From positions 1 through 64,000 of the forward strand of contig CAMREV010000001.1 in NCBI GenBank assembly GCA_947041945.1: 64,000 nt of DNA. Direction: 5' to 3'. Each line of letters opens with the position of its first letter. The first letter of the stretch is position 1. The position numbers and the translations under genes were made by a program. Shown here piece by piece: positions 42,763 through 59,051 of this stretch. The notes under the pieces were generated by a model. The model saw nothing but the letters and a program-made list of their open reading frames with translations. It was not told where the DNA came from and did not search any database. Origin of the DNA: an uncultured Mycoplasmataceae bacterium. Lineage in GTDB: Bacteria; Bacillota_I; Bacilli_A; Mycoplasmatales; Mycoplasmoidaceae.

Positions 42763-43956
42763 ATGATAAATGTTTATAGTGAAATTGGAAAATTAAAAAA
42801 AGTGCTTGTTCACACTCCCGGAAAAGAAGTTGCGAACGTTAGTCCACAAAGATTAGATGAATTATTACTTTCTGCTTTAATAGAACCAGAAAGTGCTAAA
42901 GAAGAACATGAAAGATATATTAATATCTTAAAAGATAATGATGTTGAAGTAGTTCAATTAGTAGATTTATTAGTAGAAACTTTTGAATCATGTAATAAAA
43001 AGCAAAAAGAAGAATTCATTTGAAAATGAATAAGTGAATCAAAACCAGAAATTAAAAATGAAAAAATACAAGCTAAAGTTTTTAAATTCATTAACTCTTT
43101 GAAAACAGTTAATGAATTAATTTTAAAAATGATGCATGGTATTTTTTATGAAGAGATTAAGGAAAAATCAAAAATTGATTTTGTTGTTGATCCAATGCCA
43201 AATTTATATTTTACAAGAGATCCATTTGCTTCAATTGGAAATGGTGTAAGTATTAACAAAATGAAATATGATACAAGAAGAAGAGAAACAATTTTTTCTG
43301 AATTCATTTTCACATACCATCCAGTTTATAAAGACACTCCAAAATATTACAATAGAAATGCTTCTGGAACAATTGAAGGTGGAGACATATTCATTTACAA
43401 TTCTGAAACATTAGTAATTGGTTTATCAGAAAGAACATCAAAAAAAGCAATTATTCAAATAGCAAAAAATATTAAAAAAAATAAGGAATGTAAATTCAAA
43501 TACATCTATGTAGTTAATGTTCCAAAAGCAAAAGATTTAATGCATTTAGATACATGACTAACAATGATCGATTACGATAAATTTATTTATTCTCCAAACA
43601 TTAATTCAAGTATTAAATTCTATAAAATAGATTTAAAAAAACCTGATGAAATGGTGCATCTAAAAATAACATTAGAAGCTTTCTTAAAAAGAATAACAAA
43701 AAGAAAACCAATTTTAATTCCTGTTGCTGGTAAAAATGCAAAACAATTAGACATTGATATTGAAACTCACTTTGATGCAACAAATTATTTAGTTATTGAA
43801 CCAGGCGTGATAGTTGGTTATAGTAGAAACATAAAAACTGAAGAAGCTTTAAAAAAAGCAGGCGTTAAAGTTTTATCATTTAAAGGAAATCAATTATCTC
43901 TTGGCATGGGATCTGCAAGGTGTATGTCTATGCCATTAAAAAGAAATGATATTTAA
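42763..43956 (+). CDS. arcA: Arginine deiminase
   Basis: 397 residues. Converts arginine to citrulline and ammonia. Characteristic segments are GKLKKVLVHTPGKE, PNLYFTRDPFASIGNG, the GTIEGGDIF segment, MHLDTWLTMID, and the catalytic Cys387 in GMGSARCMSMP. It is first of four arginine catabolic genes; argF follows after 21 nt with a GGAG ribosome site. Ammonia release also buffers the cytoplasm. Confidence 0.97.
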
Positions 43957-43977
43957 TAAAAATATAGGAGAAAAAAT

Positions 43978-45006
43978 ATGCCATTAAATTTAAAAGGAAG
44001 AAGTTTAGATTCACTTCTAAACTTCACAACAAAAGAAGTTCATTACTTAATAGACTTAAGTATTGATTTAAAAAAATCTAAACAACAAGGATTACACATT
44101 GGGAATAGACCTCTTGTTGGAAAAAATATTGCAATATTATTCCAAAAAGATTCTACAAGAACAAGATGTTCATTTGAAGTTGCAGCTGCTGATTTAGGAG
44201 CTAGCGTTACTTACATTGGTCCTCAAGGTTCAAACTTTGGAAAAAAAGAATCTATCGAAGATACTGCAAAAGTATTAGGTAGATATTATGATGGACTAGA
44301 ATTTAGAGGATTCCTACAATCTGATGTTGATGCATTAGTTAAATATTCAGGTGTTCCAATCTGAAATGGATTAACAGATGCTGAACATCCAACTCAAATA
44401 ATTGCTGACTTTATGACAATGAAAGAAAAATTTGGAAATTTAAAAAATAGAAAAATGGTTTTCATTGGAGACATCAAAAATAACATGGGAATATCATGTA
44501 TGATTGGTGCTGCATTTATGGGTATGAACATAACTTTATGTGCTCCAAAAGAATATCATAAAGAAGTTGATAAAAACTACATTAAAAAATGTGAGGAACT
44601 TTTCAAAATCAATGGTGGTTCTTTATCATTTTCTGATGACAAAATTAAAGCTGCAAAAGATGCAGACGTTATTTATACTGACGTGTGAGTTTCATTAGGA
44701 GAAGATTTCTCATTATTTGAAAAAAGAATTGGTGATTTAAGAAATTTCCAAGTATGTGAAAAAATGATGAAAGCAGCAAATGAAGATGCAATATTCTTAC
44801 ATTGTCTACCTGCATTCCATGATAAAAACACTCAATTTTCAAAAGAAATAGCAGAAAAATTTGGTAAGAAATTTCCTGAAGTAAAAGATGGTGCAATGGA
44901 AGTAACTGATAAAGTATTTCAATCAAGACAAAACCATGCTTTTGATCAAGCAGAAAATAGATTACATTCTATTAAAGCAATAATCTTAACTACAATTGGA
45001 TACTAA
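43978..45006 (+). CDS. arcB: Ornithine carbamoyltransferase, catabolic
   Basis: 342 residues. Carbamoyl-phosphate motif STRTR (59-63) and ornithine-binding HCLPAF are present, plus DAEHPTQ. It splits citrulline with phosphate into ornithine and carbamoyl phosphate. Its placement between arcA and arcC supports the catabolic role. The stop is 1 nt before the arcC start. Confidence 0.96.
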
Positions 45007-45007
45007 G

Positions 45008-45940
45008 ATGTCTAAGATAGTTATAGCTCTTGGTGGTAATGCTCTTGGAAACAATCCAGAAGAACAAAAAAAATTAATTGAAATACCTGCTAAAAAAATT
45101 GCTTCATTAATTAAAAATAATCACAAAGTAATTGTTGGACATGGAAATGGCCCACAAGTAGGAATGATTTTTAATTCATTTGTAGATGCAAGAAAAAGCA
45201 ATCCAAATAATGTATTAGTTCCTTTCCCAGAAGCTGGTGGAATGAGCCAAGGATACATTGGATATCATATGATTACTGCAATCACTAATGAATTAAAGAA
45301 AGTAAATATAAAAAAAGATGTACTTTATTTTTTAACTCAAACAATTGTTGATGCAAATGATGCTGGATTTAAAAATCCTACAAAACCTGTTGGACCATTT
45401 TATAGTTCAAAAGAAGAAGCAGAAAAAAACAATCCGAATAGTACAATTGTTGAAGACTCTGGAAGAGGATTTAGAAAAGTTGTAGCTAGTCCAAAACCAA
45501 TTGATTTTATTGGAATGGAAACTATTAAAAAAGTTGTTGATTTAGAATCTGTTGTCATATTTGGTGGTGGAGGAGGAATCCCTACCATTATTGAAAATAA
45601 TATGTTTAAAGGTGTTGACGGTGTAATTGATAAAGACTTTGCTCTTTGTGAAATTGCTAATAAAGTTGATGCTGATATATTTGTTATTTTAACAGCAGTT
45701 GATAATATTTGTATCAACTTCAACAAACCTAATCAAGAAAAACTTTCAAAAGTAAATGTATCTGAACTAGAAAAATATTGTTCAGAAAATCAATTTGCTC
45801 CTGGAAGTATGCTCCCTAAAGTTGAAGCTGCAATTAAGTTTGTTAAAGGTCACAATAATAGAAGTGCAATTATTGCTTCATTAGATAAAATGGAAGAAGC
45901 ATTAAATGGTCAATCAGGAACATTAATCACTAACTTATAA
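45008..45940 (+). CDS. arcC: Carbamate kinase
   Basis: 310 residues. Transfers phosphate from carbamoyl phosphate to ADP, the ATP-yielding step of arginine fermentation. Motifs: IVIALGGNALG, VGHGNGPQVG, SQGYIGYHM, and GGGGIPTI, with LTAVDNICINF. The ATG at 45008 was chosen over an in-frame TTG four codons earlier, which lies inside arcB. Confidence 0.97.
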   Translation: MSKIVIALGGNALGNNPEEQKKLIEIPAKKIASLIKNNHKVIVGHGNGPQVGMIFNSFVDARKSNPNNVLVPFPEAGGMSQGYIGYHMITAITNELKKVNIKKDVLYFLTQTIVDANDAGFKNPTKPVGPFYSSKEEAEKNNPNSTIVEDSGRGFRKVVASPKPIDFIGMETIKKVVDLESVVIFGGGGGIPTIIENNMFKGVDGVIDKDFALCEIANKVDADIFVILTAVDNICINFNKPNQEKLSKVNVSELEKYCSENQFAPGSMLPKVEAAIKFVKGHNNRSAIIASLDKMEEALNGQSGTLITNL

Positions 45941-46011
45941 GCAAATATTAATTTTTTAATATGTTATACTAAAAACAAATAAAAAATGAATAATAAAATT
46001 AAAGGAAATTT

Positions 46012-47694
46012 ATGAAAAAAGTAAAAGGCAAGTCTCAAAAATTTGATTCTGTAAAAGAACCAACTATGCAGCCTATATCTGAAGCTTCAACATCTAAAAA
46101 AATATCATTCTTCTCTGCAATGATGGTTGTTGTTGGATCATCTGTAGGTGCTGGAATATTTCTAAGATCTGCTTCTGTCCTTGAGCACGCTCAAGGAAGT
46201 TTACCACTAGCAATTTTAAGTTGACTTGTTGCATCATTTGCAGTTATTGCAATGGCATTGAGTTTAATTGAAATTGCGAGTGCAAGAAACGATAATTTAT
46301 CATTAATTGGATGATGTAAAACTTTCAATAGTAGAATAATGTACAAAGCATCAAAAAACTTTATGTTTTACATTTATTTACCACTTACCTACTTCTTTAT
46401 GCCCATGTATGTATTAATACAATTACAAGATGGAATTGGTGTTTGAACACATACAACTATTGCTTCAGATGGCGTGGTAAGTCTAGGTTCTTTTACATTT
46501 GGAACAAATGTTGATTGATTAATATGAGGTGCGATTTCAATAGTAATTAGTATTTACTTTATCATGTCAGCAGGATTATCTTCAAAAGTGGGTAATATTC
46601 AAAACTTATTAATTAGTTTTGTTAAATTTATACCATTATTAATTGCTGCATTTATTGGTTATGCTTTTGTTGCAATGAATGGAACTGGAGGAATAGAAAC
46701 AGCACCAGGTGTTCCTGTTCCACCTGAAATAGGGGCTACTCCTGTTAATCCATTCTATGATCCAACAAGATTCTCAACATTCAACCCAGGTTTTGGAATG
46801 TTCTTAGCTATTTCAGGAATCTTCTTTGCATATGATGGATTCTATGTAACTGCTGGATTACAAACTGAAATGAAAGAACCTCAAAAAACTCCTAAGGCCA
46901 TTTTATTTGGATTAATAATTGTTACTGTAATTTATTTAGCAATTGCAATTTCAATGTCATTAAATGGTACTGGTAGTTTCTATGGATTTGGTGAATGATT
47001 AGTTGGAGAAAACTTAGGCTGATTATTTGGAATAATTAATATATTAATTTCAATTGGTATTTTAGGAATCATTAATGGATTCTCATTATGAGCTCCAAGA
47101 TTTGTAGAAGATTTAATAAAAGAAAATGAATTACCATTTTCAAATAAATATGTTAATAAATTAAATGCTAACAAACCAATAGTTGGTATTAAATATACAT
47201 TATTTGCAAGTATTCCAATTATGGTATTATTTACAATAATTGGAGCCCTAGCATTTGAAAATACAGGAAATTATCCTGACTATGGTTCTGGTATGGCTTC
47301 ACTATATAGTTTCTGTGATATAGTTGCTAACTGAACTGCTGTGTTTGCATTTGCATTTATTACTGCTGCAATTTATGGTGGAATTAGAAATAGAAAAACA
47401 CAAAAAATTGAAACACAAAAATATAAAAACTTTATGCCTTATGCTATAACAGCTGTTGGTATAATGTCAGTAACGTTATTCATTACTGTATTAAATCCAA
47501 TAATAGATTTAATGTTAATCTATGTCCCTAATGCAAACATATCGCAAGAAGGACTACTTGGTAGAATAATGCTTGTTATTGTTTTAATCTTATTTATTGC
47601 TATCATGTTTGTTCCAACAATCATTGAAGATAAAATTAATGAAAAAAGATCAGGCAAAAAAACAACTTTAGACTTACAAGAAAATCTAGAATAA
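46012..47694 (+). CDS. arcD: APC-family amino acid permease, probable arginine/ornithine antiporter
   Basis: 560 residues with about 12-13 hydrophobic segments and many TGA Trp codons. The motif VVVGSSVGAGIFLRS near residues 42-56 is the APC-superfamily substrate-binding turn in helix 1, and FFAYDGFYVTAGLQTEMKEPQKTPKA is the conserved central region. An insert (NGTGGIETAPGVPVPPEIG) lies in an external loop. The substrate is inferred from position behind arcABC. TATACT at 45965-45970 may give it its own promoter. A strong terminator follows. Confidence 0.8.
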
Positions 47695-50102: not shown

Positions 50103-51452
<1,350 letters not shown>

Positions 51453-51535: not shown

Positions 51536-52681
51536 ATGAAAAAAATAAAATTGTTTGAAGCGTTTGCTGGAATTGGCTCACAATATAAAGCTTTAAAAAA
51601 TATTTCTAAAGATAAAAAATGAGACATTGAAGTTGTAGGAATAGTTGAATGATATGTTGATGCTATTATTGCTTACTTAGCAATTCACCATAATCTTAAA
51701 CACATTAAAAAAGACAAAACAACAATTAACTCACTTAGTTTAAATTCAAAAGACTTAATAACTGAAAGACAATTTAATAATTTACAAAATACTGAAAAAG
51801 CATTCTTTATTAATAAATCAAAAGAACTATGTAATAACTTATTTGATATTACTAAAGTAACTTATAAAGAAATGCCAAAAGATATTGACATCTTTACTTA
51901 TTCATTCCCTTGTCAAGATTTATCTCAACAAGGAAAACAAAGAGGAATGACCAAAGATACTAGAAGTGGATTATTATTTCAAATTGATCGTATTCTTTCA
52001 GAAATGAAGAAAAACTACTCAATAAATGACTTACCTAAGTATTTACTATTAGAAAATGTTACAAATATTGTTTCTAAGAGGCATTTAAGCGCATATAACA
52101 AGTGATTAGATAAATTACATAGATTAGGTTACGAATCTAAAACTTATGTCTTAAACTCAAGGAATTTTGGTTCTCCTCAAAATAGAGTAAGAACATTTTG
52201 TATTTCAGTTAGAAAAGACTTTAAAGAAAAAGTTAATTTTAGTTTTCCTGAATTTGAAAATATAGACAAAAAGAATAAAAAAATTAAATCTATTTTAGAA
52301 AAAGAAGTAGATGAAAAGTATTATATGAATAATTTAATGACCTATTCAAAAACTGATGAAAAAAAATCAAAAAATGGATTAATAAAATGTTATTTAAAAA
52401 ACTACACTAATTTTAATAGTGAAGCATATTTATATAGTATTGAAGGTAAGGGCCCAACATTAACTGCTTCTGGTGCAAACAGTAGAATTAAAATATGAAT
52501 TAACAACAGAATAAGAAGACTAACACCATTGGAAGCTTATTTGTATATGGGATTTAAAAAACAAGATTTTAATAATGTAAATAGATTAGAAATTTTAAAT
52601 GAAAGACAAATGGTTTTCACTGCAGGAAATTCTATTTCGATTGAAGCATTAGAAGGAATATTTAATTCTTTTAAGTTTTAG
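51536..52681 (+). CDS. DNA (cytosine-5-)-methyltransferase
   Basis: 381 residues, complete for a type II C5 methylase. Motif I is LFEAFAGIGSQ, motif IV FPCQDLSQQG with nucleophile Cys126, motif VI LENV, motif VIII QNRVRTF, motif IX RRLTPLEAYLYMGF and motif X GNSI. Target specificity cannot be read from the sequence. No restriction endonuclease is recognisable next to it; the next gene is an AAA_13 ATPase. TGA codons show it is adapted to code 4. It lies between the eno terminator and a spacer with a 22-bp palindrome. Confidence 0.93.
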
Positions 52682-52756
52682 AATAAAAGGTGATTTTAAT
52701 TAAAGGAATTTAATGGTTATGTTATTATTATTTTATAATGTTAAATTAAAAGATAA

Positions 52757-52778
52757 TGATCATTTTTAAAAATGATCA
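52757..52778. repeat. 22-bp perfect palindrome in the spacer upstream of the ATPase
   Basis: TGATCATTTTT at 52757-52767 is followed directly by its reverse complement AAAAATGATCA (52768-52778). It contains two GATC sites. It could be an operator, a methylation-sensitive site or a weak terminator; no T-run follows. Confidence 0.7.
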
Positions 52779-52896
52779 ATATTGTTAAAAAGAACTATAG
52801 AAGATTTATATTAATTTAATAAATTAAATTTTTTGAATAACAAAATATTATAAAGTTAATTAAATCTATAAAAAAAGAAAAAAGAAGATTAGAAAT

Positions 52897-55047
52897 ATGT
52901 TTGAAAAATTTAAATCCGATAATCCAAACTTTATTCTTTCTGAAGATCAATCAAAAAAGTTAAATGATGGCAAAGTTATATATTTGTTTGGAAAAAACGG
53001 AAGCGGTAAAACAACTTTGTCAAGGGAAATAGAATCTTATTTTTATAAAGAAGTAGAATTATTTATTTTTAATGAAGACTATATAAGTAAAAACTTATAT
53101 GTTCAAGATCTTAATTCATTAAAATCAGAAGTGAAACAACTTCCATCCACAAAAGAAAATACTTTCAAAATATTTTTTGGAAAAGAGTTAATCAATTTAA
53201 AAGATAAATTAGATAAAAAGATAGATTATTTTAAGCAACTAAAAGATCAATTTAATTCTCATAAAATTAAACCAAAATACATGTATGAATTAAAAGAAGT
53301 TAATTTAGAAGGTAATGTTGATTTAAAAAGTTGAAATGATTTAAAAATAAATGATAAAAATATTATTAAAAATATGAAAAACTTTAACGATATGGACAAA
53401 ATAAAAAAAGAATTTGATAGTAAATTTAGTTCAATTAAGAATTATAAAGATCAATTTGATTTTTATAAAGAAATAAATGATTTAAAAAAATGTATCAAGG
53501 ATCAAAATAAAAATATATTGCAAATAAATTCACTATATAAAGAAAAGATTAAAAATCAAGTAATAATTGATTTCCATGAAAATTCAAAAAATTATTTTGA
53601 AAAAGACACTATAGAATTTTTAGAAAAAGAATATCATTTATCTGATTTAGAAAAATATTTAGAAAAATGAAAAACAAATAAAAATGAAAAAATTGAATTG
53701 TTTGCAAAAAATAATAAAAAAATTTCAAATAAAATAATTAATATTGAAAAAAACAATCTTTTTGATAATTTGTTAGATGAAAAAAATAAAAATTTTATTA
53801 TGGAAACTAAAAAAAGAAACAGTATCAAAATAGATACTTATAGTAATGAAAATGCTATTTTTGAATTGGAAGAAGAAATTATTATTCATGGAAAAAAAGA
53901 AATAAAAAATTCTTTCGGAGCGTGACTAGAGGAAAATAAATGGTATCTTATAGATGACTGTGAAAATTTAAATGATTTATTTAATAAAATAATAAAATAT
54001 GACAAAAATATTAAGCTCATTAAGAAAGAAATAACAGAAAAAACTAATGATTTAGGAAAATCATTTATTGAAAAATTAAATAATCATATTAAAACATTAT
54101 CAAATGAAAACTTTAATATTTTATTTGAGTTAGAAAGTGTTTCAAATAGAAGTATGATTAAACTATATTTTAATAATAATAGAAATTTCAATAGTCTTTC
54201 TGCTGGTGAAAAGTCAATAATTTCTTTTGCGTATTTTTTAACTGATTTAGAGAATAATTTAATAAAAATTAAAAAACCTTTTATTGTTTTTATTGATGAT
54301 CCATTTGATTCAAATGATCATTACAAATATGATAATTTTAGCAAGATAAAATTTGAAAATATGGGACTTTCAGATTTTATAAAAAAAGTTTCTTTAGAAA
54401 ATAAAGTTAAATCAAAATTAATAATTACCACTCATAATATTCACATTTTAATGTCATTTATTAGAAGTTTACGTAGCGAACATAATGAAGATTTTTTTAT
54501 ACAACAAAATGATTTAACAAAAAGCAATATTTTTGTCAAAGAAATAGTTAATCATTCAAACAAGATTAATATAAATGACATTGATATAAAGCTTTTTTTT
54601 CCAATAGAAAAAAATATAACAGAATTTTTAAAAACCGCAATTGAAAAATTTATGAAAATAGAAAAATATAATGATATTGAAATTCAAATTTTTAAATTAA
54701 TTTTATGTTTATTAATTAAAATATACGATTCATCTGAATCAGAATTGAGAGCTAAATATAAATCATATATTAAAGAACACTCTCCTAAATGAAATGTAAA
54801 AGAAGAAAAAGTAATAAAAATAAGAGATATACCGATTAGTTTTAAAGAAATTAATAAACAAAATATAAAGATTTTTTTGGATAAATATTCAGAAAAAAAA
54901 GAATATAGCAATGACATTGTTATTTATTTGAATTTTATAAAAACAAAATATGAAAAAATTTTTTTGACTGAAGATCAAGAACAAATTAAAAGAATGAGAC
55001 ATAAAATATTTACATCAACATTATTCAATGATATATTAGAAGAATAA
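52897..55047 (+). CDS. AAA_13-type ABC ATPase, probable defence protein
   Basis: 716 residues. Walker A is GKNGSGKT (32-39), the ABC signature is LSAGE (434-438), Walker B is FIDDPFD (Asp467-Asp468) and the switch His513 is in TTHNIH. Between Walker A and the signature lies a coiled-coil region of about 380 residues, as in PrrC, RloC and other AAA_13 proteins. The C-terminal 190 residues are lysine-rich and carry no nuclease motif that I can name. PrrC and RloC are tRNA anticodon nucleases tied to phage defence. Position 215 nt after a DNA methylase suggests a modification-linked defence pair (inference). Most Trp are TGA, one is TGG. Confidence 0.72.
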
Positions 55048-55232
55048 TAATATATAGGTAAGTATTTGGTCCTTAAATTATCTATTTTCTTGATAATAAA
55101 TATAGTATTTATCTAGTTTGTGATTCCTATTAGAAATATATGATTAAATTAATAGTTTATTATTTATTTTTTTATGTTAAATTTATATATGTATATTAAT
55201 ATGACTACTACTGTGTTATAAATCATTTGGTT

Positions 55233-55247
55233 TATTACTGTGTAATA
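55233..55247 (+). promoter_or_regulatory. Small hairpin in the rpsO leader
   Basis: TATTAC and GTAATA flank a TGT loop, just upstream of the AAAGG ribosome site. A related string, ACTGTGTTATAA, lies about 24 nt earlier. Ribosomal protein S15 often represses its own mRNA through leader structure, so this may be the site; untested. Confidence 0.3.
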
Positions 55248-55265
55248 GTGGAAGAAAAGGAAATT

Positions 55266-55538
55266 ATGGCAATAAGTAAAGCTACAAAAGAAAAAATCAT
55301 CCAAGAAGTTGGTGGAAGTAAAGAAAATACTGGAATGACTGAAGTTCAAATCACTATTTTAACAGCTGAAATTAAATCTTTAACTGATCATATGATTTTA
55401 AATAAGAAAGATAACATCTCTAAAAGAGGGTTACAAAAAAAAGTTTCTAAAAGAAAATCTTTATTAACTTATTTAAAAAGAAAAGACATTGAAAGATATA
55501 GAAATATTCTTAAAACTTTAGGTTTAAGAGGTAACTAA
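55266..55538 (+). CDS. rpsO: 30S ribosomal protein S15
   Basis: 90 residues, normal length. Signature segments are [40 protein letters not shown] and [16 protein letters not shown]15 binds the central domain of 16S rRNA early in assembly. The ATG at 55266 has AAAGG 5 nt upstream. Its last 85 bp and terminator recur at 57051-57172. Confidence 0.97.
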
Positions 55539-55569
55539 AAAATAAGAAACATTTTGTTTCTTATTTTTT
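55537..55569 (+). terminator. Terminator after rpsO (copy 1)
   Basis: A 14-bp stem (55537-55550 with 55556-55569) with loop ATTTT, followed by T's. A near copy follows the duplicated rpsO end near 57134. Confidence 0.88.
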
Positions 55570-55591
55570 TATTTCTTTTAATAATAAAAAA

Positions 55592-55691
55592 GATTCTTTT
55601 TTATTAGAAAGAAACTTAGTAAATAACATAAACCAAGATACAATATTTTGCTAAGAACAGTTACAACTATCCAAATATAGTTGTAACTGAT
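55592..55691 (+). pseudogene. Decayed uvrC fragment
   Basis: 100 nt align by eye with uvrC positions 57477-57578 (about 80% identity with one 2-nt gap), from GATTCTTTTTTA to GTTGTAACTGAT. The translation begins DSFLLERNL like UvrC, then hits an in-frame stop. It lies directly behind the intact rpsO, where uvrC would be expected before insertion of the next gene. Confidence 0.8.
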
Positions 55692-55790
55692 AAAAAATCT
55701 AAGAGTTATTTACAAAAGAAATTTTGTTAAATAAAAGTAGTATTTTGCCATTTCCAAATAAATGAAAAAAATTAATTTATAATTACTAAT

Positions 55791-56927
55791 ATGGAAAATA
55801 AAAGAAAAAAAATTAACAACCATTTTATTCAAAAGGCTTTTGCGAAAAATTTTTCTAATAACGGATTATTGAAATATACATATTACAAACCGAATTCAAA
55901 AGTTGAGGATGAAAAAACTTTTAATGTTAATGAAATAGATACTAGTAAGCACCCTATTGTAAAAAAAAAATTTTATTCTAGGGAAATTGAAGATGAAATG
56001 AATGAAATAGAAAATGATGGAATAAAAGTAATAAAAAAAATTGCTTATTATTCAAACAATAATATTGATAATAAAATTTCTTTAAACGGAAAAGAACTTT
56101 ATCATTTAAAATTCTACTTTTTACTTAGCAATATAAGGACTAATAAAATCAGAGAATTTATTTCCAATTTAAATGGAGATCATATATTTATTGATGCAGT
56201 TAAAAAAGATAAAAGAAGTGTAAAAGATATTCAAGAAAGTCAAATAAAAACAATTATTGATGAATACAAAAGATATAAGAAAAAAGAATTATTATTATCA
56301 ACAAAATTTTTTGATAGATATTGAGAAAGTGAAAATCATTCATCATATGCTTTGAAAGATTGTACTCCTGAAAAAATTGTATTGTTTACTGCTTATAATA
56401 TAATGAAATCAAGATTGCATATTTTTAAATTTAATAAAAATAAATTATTTCTTCATGATGGGATTGCGTTTTCCTATAATCATTCATGTGGTGGGATTAT
56501 TACATTTATGCCCATTTCCCCAAATATTGGAATTATGTTTTATTTAGATCCTCCAATTACAATAAAATCATCAAAATGAGATTTTTTCAAAATTGATATT
56601 TTAGAAAAAAAAAGTAGTATTATTTATGTTAATGAATATCAAATACAGCAAGAAAAAAGAAAATTTATTAGTGAAAAAAAACTTAATGATTCACAATTTG
56701 AAAAAGATCGATTAGATAGATATTTCTTTTTATTGATAGCTAGCAACTTTTTTCATGATGATGACAAACACACAAATGATATTTTAGAAGAAAGTGAAGA
56801 AGTTCAAGATATTTGTAATGCTATTGCCTTAATACAAAATAAAGATAGTTTTATAATATATCAAAAAAAAGAACATATTAAAGATGCTGAAATTAAGATG
56901 AAAAAAATTAATATATTATGAGGCTAG
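55791..56927 (+). CDS. DUF4238 family protein
   Basis: 378 residues, joined through three TGA codons. The N-terminal motif NNHFIQKAFAKNFSNNGLLKYTYY matches the DUF4238 start (H-x2-P/Q...YL.NF....L..Y; shown as residues 6-29). FYSREIEDEMNEIEND follows, and ITFMPISPNIGIMFYLDPP near 240-258 is the conserved C-terminal core. DUF4238 proteins occur in accessory and phage-defence settings, but their activity is not known to me. It is flanked by a decayed uvrC piece and a duplicated rpsO end, so it is an insertion. Ribosome site is weak. Confidence 0.7.
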
Positions 56928-57050
56928 AATAATCAAGATAATAAAAAATAAGTAGCATAAGTTTTCAAACAATATAAAAAAGTTACTATTTATAATTAGG
57001 GCGACATATAAAATTATGTGCTTTCTTTTATTATCATTTATGTTAAGATT
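56928..57050. other. Spacer between DUF4238 gene and duplicated rpsO end
   Basis: About 120 bp without a gene. No tRNA, integrase site or inverted repeat recognised. The junction with the rpsO copy is at about 57048-57051. Confidence 0.4.
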
Positions 57051-57172
57051 AAAATCTTTATTAACTTATTTAAAAAGAAAAGACATTGAAAGATATAGAA
57101 GTATCATTAAAACTTTAGGTTTAAGAGGTAACTAAAAAATAAGAAACATTTTGTTTTTTATTTTTTTTTATT
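57051..57172 (+). pseudogene. Duplicated 3' end of rpsO with terminator (copy 2)
   Basis: 57051-57135 repeats the last 85 bp of rpsO (55454-55538), beginning AAAATCTTTATTAAC, and encodes [20 protein letters not shown]...LGLRGN and stop. There are three base differences near 57100. The terminator hairpin follows with little change. Only the C-terminal 28 codons are present, with no start, so it cannot make S15. It is the right-hand direct repeat around the DUF4238 gene. Confidence 0.92.
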
Positions 57173-57248: not shown

Positions 57249-59051
57249 ATGGATTCTAATAGAAAAAATTTACTTGAGAAAATAAAGAACTTACCAGAAA
57301 CTCCAGGATGCTATCTTTGAAAGAATAATGTTGGTGATGTTATCTATGTTGGTAAGGCTAAAAACTTATTAGATCGAGTTAGTCAATACATGAATAACAA
57401 ATCATTAGATTCTAAAACTCAAATTTTAGTATCTAAGATTTGAGATGTTGATTACATCTCTGTTGATAATGAAAATGATTCTTTTTTACTTGAAAGAAAT
57501 CTAATTAATAAATATAAACCAAGATATAATATCTTATTAAGAACAGGTGGTAATTATCCTTATATTGTTGTAACAGATGAAAAACACCCAAGAATAATAT
57601 ATACTCGTAATCCTGATAAAATCAGAGGTAAAAAATATGGACCATTTGCAAATTCAAAAATGAATAAATATGAATTATTTATTATTTTAAATAGAATGTT
57701 TCCATTAAGAAAATGTAGTAAGTTACCAAAGAATAAATGTATCTTTTATGATATTGGTCAATGTGCTGCTCCATGTATCAATAAAATTGAACCTGGATTT
57801 TATGAAGAGATTGAAAAGAAAATAGATTCATTATTTAAAGGTAAAATAAATGACTTTAAAAAAGAACTAAAAGAAAAAGAAATCCACTATAGTGATAAAT
57901 TAGAATTTGAAACAGCAATGAGTTATTTAGAAATTACAAAAGCACTTGATTTTATCATTCAAAACAATCAAGTTATTTTTGATACAAAAAAAGACTTTGA
58001 CTTTTTTTCTTTCTATGTAAAAGAAAATTCAATTACAGTTGTAATCTTTAAATATAATAATGGAACATTGTTAGATAAGTATGAAACAACAAACTTCTTA
58101 TTTGATAATGATGAATTAGACTACATTAAATCACTTCTAATCAACTATTATCTTGATGAACTTACAAAGAAACCTAAATCAATCTACATCTCTATAGAAG
58201 CAGATAAATTAAAAGATATCGAAGATATTATTAAAATTAAGTTTATTAATCCCAAGAGTGGAAAAATGCTTAATACAATGAAAACAGCAATGCAAAATGC
58301 AAAACTTGCAAATCAATCTAAATATTATAAATTAGTTCAAAATTTTGATCGAAACGAAAATGCATTAATTGAATTAGAAAAGCTATTAGGAATAGATAAT
58401 TTATCACTAATTGAAATGTATGATAATTCAAATATTTTTAACACTATCAATGTTGGTGTTAAAGTAGCTTATTTAAATGGCTATAAAAATACTAATCTAT
58501 ATCGTAAATATAATATTAAAAATGAAACTGCAAGATCAGACTTTGAATATATGGAAGAAGTAGTATATCGTCGATTCTTATCAATTAAAAACGGTAAAGA
58601 TAGTATGTTACCAAATCTTATAATTGTTGATGGTGGAAAACCACAAATAACAGCTGCAAAAAATTCATTAAAAAAATTATCTTTAGAAGGAGTTGTTCCA
58701 GTAATTGGTTTAACAAAAAATGAAAGACACAAAACTAAAAGTATTATTTTAGAAAATGGTGAAGAAATAGAATTAGATAAATCAAATGAAGTTTATTTAT
58801 TCTTGCTAAATATTCAAGAAGAAGTTCATCGTTATGCTATTTCCTTTTATCGAAATAAAAAATCAGCATCATTATTTTATACAAAACTAAATGATGTACC
58901 TGGCTTAGGTAGACAAAGAATAAAAAATTTATTAGAAAAATATGATTCATTAGAAGCAATTGTGAATGCATCAGAAGATGAACTTTCACAAATTGTTCCT
59001 AGAGAAATTGCAAAAAAAATAAAAGAGATAGATATAAAAAAAATAATATAA
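57249..59051 (+). CDS. uvrC: Excinuclease ABC subunit C
   Basis: 600 residues. The GIY-YIG nuclease domain is at the N-terminus (LPETPGCYLW...VIYVGKAKNLLDR), a UVR/Cys-containing region (PLRKC...QCAAPC) is near 165, an RNase H-like C-terminal nuclease has MYDNSN and VDGGKPQ, and a helix-hairpin-helix tail (VPGLGRQRIKNLLEKY) ends the protein. It makes both incisions in nucleotide excision repair. Start at 57249 has weak ribosome site. Part of it (57477-57578) is duplicated in decayed form upstream. Confidence 0.95.

Follow-up and report, generated by a model that had tools for sequence, protein, structure and literature searches.

The stretch of DNA analyzed here (the window; 64,000 nucleotides, positions 1 to 64,000 of contig CAMREV010000001.1, assembly GCA_947041945.1, from an uncultured Mycoplasmataceae bacterium) carries a cytosine methylase, an ABC ATPase, and a protein named P0003 between the genes eno (50103-51452) and uvrC (57249-59051). 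Do these genes form one defense system, or have they come to lie together in other ways? The original prediction had described three non-housekeeping genes at one hotspot, i.e., a possible defense module of a C5 methylase, an AAA_13 ATPase, and a DUF4238 protein. Translated with code 4 (TGA = Trp), the interval does hold three intact plus-strand open reading frames (ORFs) of 381, 716, and 378 aa; however, the gene order is eno, methylase, ATPase, rpsO, P0003, and uvrC, with methylase through P0003 all on the plus strand, and the housekeeping gene rpsO (55266-55538), overlooked in the original prediction, separates the ATPase from P0003. We consider it fairly probable that the eno-uvrC site gathered defense-type genes in separate events, including an orphan CpG methylase and an ATPase with an unclassified, effector-like tail.

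The methylase is far more widespread than the ATPase and P0003. The methylase (counted at E <= 1e-40) was found in 24 of 95 genomes of the family, at 27 loci; the ATPase in 1/95 genomes of the family, 2/298 of the order, and 1/395 of the class; and P0003 in 1/95 of the family. Methylase and ATPase occur together in a single family genome out of the 95. When genome_contigs (84,980 species) was scanned with the ATPase, eight loci were found, and the sole full-length relative, with 32% identity, is that of Candidatus Tyloplasma litorale (G119), whose contig has C5-methylase matches near 208 kb and 220 kb and the ATPase at 479 kb, placing the nearest methylase about 258 kb away. The normal partner of the methylase, described below, is an HNH endonuclease. 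These observations are evidence against a joint function of methylase and ATPase, and the proposal that the two make up one system did not hold up: as far as the searched collections reach, they largely do not co-occur elsewhere, an outcome that the original prediction had itself named in advance as speaking against the idea. The ATPase does occupy the slot of the HNH gene in relatives, a single example that is indistinguishable from chance. Similarly, one conserved methylase-ATPase-DUF4238 module was rejected on the distribution of its members; inclusion of P0003 in one module is disfavored because rpsO intervenes and insertion scars surround P0003. What stands is the defense-type gene content of the locus, namely a C5 methylase, an ATPase of the PrrC/RloC superfamily, and a DUF4238 relative.

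The first gene (51536-52681, plus strand, 381 aa) encodes a C5 cytosine methyltransferase of the M.MpeI/M.SssI type. It matches PF00145 at E 2.2e-54, as the original assignment would have it, and contains FAGIG, PCQ, ENV, QNRVR, and GNS, all of which we take to be catalytic motifs of C5 methyltransferases. The M.MpeI structures 4dkj and 8c56 are matched over the full length (E about 2e-115, about 50% identity). Like M.MpeI and M.SssI, the CpG C5 methyltransferases of Mollicutes to which it is homologous, the window methylase keeps the recognition loops, but it is flanked by an ATPase where an HNH gene would be. The loops read TNFNSE and TASGANSR; FNSE and SGANSR are common to M.MpeI, whereas the position before F in loop 1 is N in the window methylase and T in M.MpeI. 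The corresponding M.MpeI loops, T301-E305 and G322-R326, contact the CG step, according to the part of PMC10899764 that describes them. On these features, the window methylase is predicted to methylate CpG, and the top-ranked PADLOC model for it is an orphan methyltransferase.

The composition of the genome points the same way. The CpG observed/expected ratio is 0.29 in the window and 0.23 in the next 40 kb, i.e., strong depletion. In the family, the median ratio is 0.31 in 12 methylase-positive genomes (14 stretches) versus 0.78 in 11 methylase-negative ones (11 stretches; Mann-Whitney P 0.0008), which is only consistent with CpG methylation by the methylase, because the negative genomes have higher GC and shared descent.

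In relatives, the methylase usually has company. An HNH-related ORF of about 375-440 aa lies directly downstream, on the same strand, in 20 of the 27 loci (by BLAST), and all six reference HNH partners match HNH_2, five above the curated cut-off and that of G002 below it. The seven loci lacking the ORF are the window's own, two at contig edges (L024 and L027), three with methylases of a distant clade, and L022; L022, L025, L028, and L029 were HNH-negative by BLAST, and these four and the two edge loci were retained in the denominator of 27. Taken as a series, the loci L004-L029 show a regular methylase-HNH_2 pairing.

The window departs from this arrangement. No HNH gene was found in its intergenic gaps or elsewhere in it, and a cognate endonuclease is absent beside the methylase; a search with the HNH partner of G001 gave relatives in 13/95 family genomes but none in the genome of the window at E <= 0.001. 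The stretch between methylase and ATPase (52682-52896, no strand assigned) is the position of the HNH_2 endonuclease in relatives, and a decayed HNH gene there was rejected, since a tblastn search with 12 HNH partners gave only chance-level matches among those listed. Repeat and hairpin analysis of the same stretch revealed a near-perfect AT-rich palindrome with hairpin potential (52751-52790), which might act as an operator or as a terminator of low strength. The earlier remark that the methylase has no recognizable endonuclease is thus borne out, with no HNH domain within or beside it. Elsewhere in the genome (G000), the single HNH_2 match above cut-off lies on contig 11 (L145:7587-9681, minus strand) and adjoins a second C5 methylase with a different recognition region; relocation of the endonuclease to contig 11 was rejected, as that HNH_2 gene belongs to the second methylase. 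Two weaker HNH_2 matches in the genome, of 12.5 and 11.6 bits, fall below cut-off and were not followed further.

Because an HNH partner is common in relatives and missing here, the window methylase is read from these comparisons as the solitary descendant of a methylase-HNH_2 restriction-modification (RM) pair whose endonuclease was lost. It belongs to the same methylase family as the pairs of, e.g., G001, G021, G023, and G028, two pairs also being located downstream of eno, but it lacks their HNH gene.

The idea of a hotspot has little behind it. Two genomes from a different genus, G021 and G030, also have a methylase after eno, but in the methylase tree (24 of the 27 loci included) these methylases are not sisters of the window methylase; they fall in another supported clade, and common ancestry of the eno-side methylases was rejected. 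At L091 and L092 (from G021 and G030), a rhodanese gene separates eno from the methylase-HNH pair downstream. Since these pairs and the window methylase are not sisters, genes may have inserted repeatedly on the eno side. Eight methylases (G001, G002, G021, G030, G069, G071, G087, and G089) form a supported clade in which GALSR or GAMSR replaces the GANSR of M.MpeI in recognition loop 2, a change that, judged from sequence, may shift or refine specificity.

The second gene (52897-55047, plus strand, 716 aa; its product is P0002) encodes an SMC/Rad50-like ABC ATPase. Its assignment to AAA_13 (PF13166) was upheld by a score of 38.4 bits against a gathering cut-off of 36, the best stretch covering profile positions 281-607 of 713, and the protein has a Walker A motif (GKNGSGKT, residues 32-39), a signature (LSAGE, 434), a Walker B motif (IVFIDDP, about 463-469), and THN at 512-514. 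The predicted model has a mean pLDDT of 49, and the fold search, which covers only residues 9-567, matches the heads of SMC, Rad50, and RecF (best Z 12.6, rmsd 3.4 over 257 residues, 3zgx_A), so that, as modeled, the head appears to be of the Rad50/SMC type. Among solved structures, none matched the ATPase by sequence at E < 0.1.

The C-terminal region (about residues 520-716; 54454-55047, plus strand) is barely covered by the fold search and is helical in the model, with a pLDDT of about 40-60. It is 31% identical to the Tyloplasma relative, with R699, R701, and H702 conserved. Profile searches gave no match in Pfam or in PDB sequences, and hhalign of the C-termini found nothing, in agreement with the description of this region as unrecognized. 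PrrC and RloC, AAA_13 proteins whose kind of gene is linked to RM systems in the relevant parts of PMC2610378 and PMC3710099, likewise combine an ABC ATPase head with a helical C-terminal extension, but the window ATPase differs from them in lacking the anticodon nuclease (ACNase) triad and the zinc hook, and its C-terminus is unrelated or unrecognizable. Specifically, the catalytic triad R-X3-E-X36-52-H, as defined for RloC/PrrC in the passage of PMC2610378 dealing with it, is absent from both P0002 and the Tyloplasma relative, and the CxxC zinc hook is absent from P0002. Membership of the ATPase among RloC/PrrC proteins was rejected on the missing triad and zinc hook, together with the unmatched C-terminus. 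The head is also alike in fold class to AriA (PARIS) and LmuB (Lamassu), SMC-like defense ATPases that both appear in the Foldseek list, and PADLOC returned a weak LmuB match (E 0.08); no AriB-like or LmuA-like partner is present among the neighbor genes read, and the relation to AriA and LmuB is one of fold level only.

The genomic setting of the Tyloplasma relative, which has as neighbors a type II cas1 and a CRISPR array (about 66 units, each of 66 bases), supports a defense role for the ATPase from a single context. That locus (L051; 38-4425 and 6510-8828) holds the array, cas1, the ATPase relative, and a 349-aa ORF without a PADLOC match at E <= 0.1. The alignment of the ATPase (A2) comprises P0002 and five of the eight genome_contigs loci, omitting L072 (a split ORF) and L074/L075, which are transporter-type ABC ATPases by ORF reading. 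An origin of the ATPase in a phage or plasmid was rejected: 50,697 phage records contained no relatives, and the matches among plasmids, in 12 records, were all short. Scans of IMG/VR, made as a check on phage origin, found no relatives of the ATPase or P0003, and PHROGs gave no match for either. In composition, the ATPase has the lowest GC (18.5%) of the 45 window ORFs of at least 600 bases and the second-highest CpG ratio, with 12 CpG against about 4.8 expected at the depletion of the genome (Poisson P 0.004, uncorrected for the 45 ORFs). The methylase, at 24.2% GC, has the composition of the genome. This difference in GC and the CpG excess suggest that the ATPase arrived later than the methylase.

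The third gene, P0003 (55791-56927, plus strand, 378 aa), had been labeled a DUF4238 protein, which is partly right. P0003 itself lies below detection by PF14022 (no match at E <= 1), and the profile finds nothing in its genome at E <= 0.01, but a protein from another family of the order (L117) is 34% identical to P0003 over 368 columns (pairwise E 2e-43) and passes the PF14022 cut-off (31.7 bits versus 27). DUF4238 is found in 23/298 genomes of the order at E <= 0.01, 18 of them above cut-off. The most fitting description of P0003 is a diverged relative of DUF4238 and, going by that homology, a defense candidate. A DUF4238 protein acting as a single-gene defense in P2-like phages confers strong resistance to T7, its molecular function being unknown as far as the relevant section of PMC9122126 goes; compared with it, P0003 is related through the mollicute protein that passes the cut-off, and its role in defense is that of a candidate only. 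Phage or plasmid origin of P0003 was rejected, since no relatives were found in the 50,697 phage records or in plasmid records. No solved structure matches P0003 by sequence up to E 10, and its structure model, with a pLDDT of 34, is useless.

The surroundings of P0003 bear on how it arrived. The intact rpsO (ribosomal protein S15; plus strand), at most 70% identical to rpsO of relatives, carries its own terminator-like hairpin, and the claimed module is thus interrupted by a housekeeping gene. Directly after it, to the left of P0003, lies a decayed, 128-base fragment of uvrC (55571-55698, plus strand; about codons 70-112), 79% identical to the resident uvrC and with two frameshifts. To the right is a truncated second copy of the rpsO tail (57046-57168, plus strand; rpsO residues 62-90 matched), identical to the full copy at 111 of 115 bases (97%) in a repeat running from 57051, and with the terminator-like hairpin present in both copies. 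In the other family genomes, uvrC was found within the 1.5 kb flanks of rpsO in none of the 18 with an rpsO match (20 genomes were searched, including the window's own, and one gave no match). Mismatches in the uvrC fragment number 10, 2, and 13 at codon positions 1, 2, and 3, and 11 of 22 changed codons are synonymous. This argues weakly for a diverged donor of the uvrC piece, because the resident uvrC also kept evolving under constraint. The observed order would result from a single-crossover type of insertion that brought in P0003 together with parts of uvrC and rpsO, and P0003 most likely arrived by its own insertion, with the uvrC fragment and the rpsO tail copy as scars.

Apart from this interval, positions 42763-47691 of the window hold four consecutive genes resembling what we take to be the arginine deiminase pathway (presumably arcA, ornithine carbamoyltransferase, carbamate kinase, and a transporter).

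If defense-type genes did collect at this site in separate events, the solitary methylase most likely still methylates CpG genome-wide, and the ATPase most likely acts alone or with an unlinked partner. Its SMC/Rad50-like head would detect DNA that is foreign or damaged, or else a change made by a phage, and a toxic activity of the C-terminal domain would be released by ATP turnover, leading to a growth stop as in proteins of the PrrC/RloC type and, putatively, to an anti-phage effect. P0003 would be a third, independent defense candidate that came on its own segment and left the uvrC and rpsO debris. Several points weigh against this account. With just two genomes known to carry the ATPase, selection acting on it is not measurable; its C-terminus has no nameable catalytic motif, and its model is of low confidence; the CpG comparison is confounded by the higher GC and mutual relatedness of the negative genomes; and the functions of all three proteins are predictions. 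An alternative reading of the debris is a single large block import with P0003 at its end. Such an import, bringing methylase, ATPase, full rpsO, uvrC piece, and P0003 as a mobile defense cassette and truncating the resident rpsO, would leave the full rpsO on the left and the truncated tail on the right, and the synonymous changes in the uvrC fragment fit DNA from a relative; but the methylase has the composition of the genome while the ATPase and P0003 are AT-richer, and the 97% identity of the rpsO tails against 79% for the uvrC fragment hints at more than one event. We regard a block import as unlikely.

About as doubtful is the possibility that the ATPase is a diverged anticodon nuclease of the PrrC/RloC type, its HEPN domain having drifted beyond recognition while still cutting tRNA. 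The AAA_13 match and the shared layout of ABC head and helical C-terminus would fit, but the triad is absent in both known members and the CxxC hook is missing as well, hhalign of the C-termini was empty, and the single Rx5H motif (residue 523) is not found in the relative and occurs in 38% of shuffles. Somewhat less probable again is a replacement of the HNH endonuclease by the ATPase as effector, with host CpG methylated and the response triggered by unmethylated incoming DNA or by methylation loss. The ATPase does sit in the slot held by HNH_2 endonucleases in most related loci, methylase and ATPase are both intact and on the same strand with a gap of 215 bases, and an SMC-like head suits DNA sensing; against this, the pair is confined to one family genome, the Tyloplasma relative is not beside a C5 methylase, the two genes differ in composition, hinting at different arrival times, and they are separated by a palindrome and not closely coupled. 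Least probable of all would be a new methylation-linked defense in which the HNH endonuclease of an M.SssI-type system has given way to an SMC/Rad50-like ATPase whose C-terminus, a novel toxic domain, reads the CpG methylation state and answers unmethylated incoming DNA with growth arrest rather than cutting.

With separate gathering as the preferred reading, the gene set itself is ordinary, i.e., defense genes collecting at one site, and the element of interest is the ATPase with its unclassified C-terminal domain. If active in defense, this ATPase would add an SMC/Rad50-like variant that lacks the active site of PrrC/RloC, so far from two mollicutes and in one of them beside CRISPR, and an effector of unknown kind may reside in its C-terminus. 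The methylase-HNH_2 pairing across the family is a useful by-product of the comparison. It ties the CpG methylases of the family to a regular partner, the HNH_2 protein, which is a candidate for the cognate endonuclease in restriction-modification of the CpG type. The part of PMC9465063 devoted to the CpG methylase of Mycoplasma agalactiae treats it as an orphan that probably arose when its cognate endonuclease was lost, and the family HNH_2 pairs name a candidate for that endonuclease.

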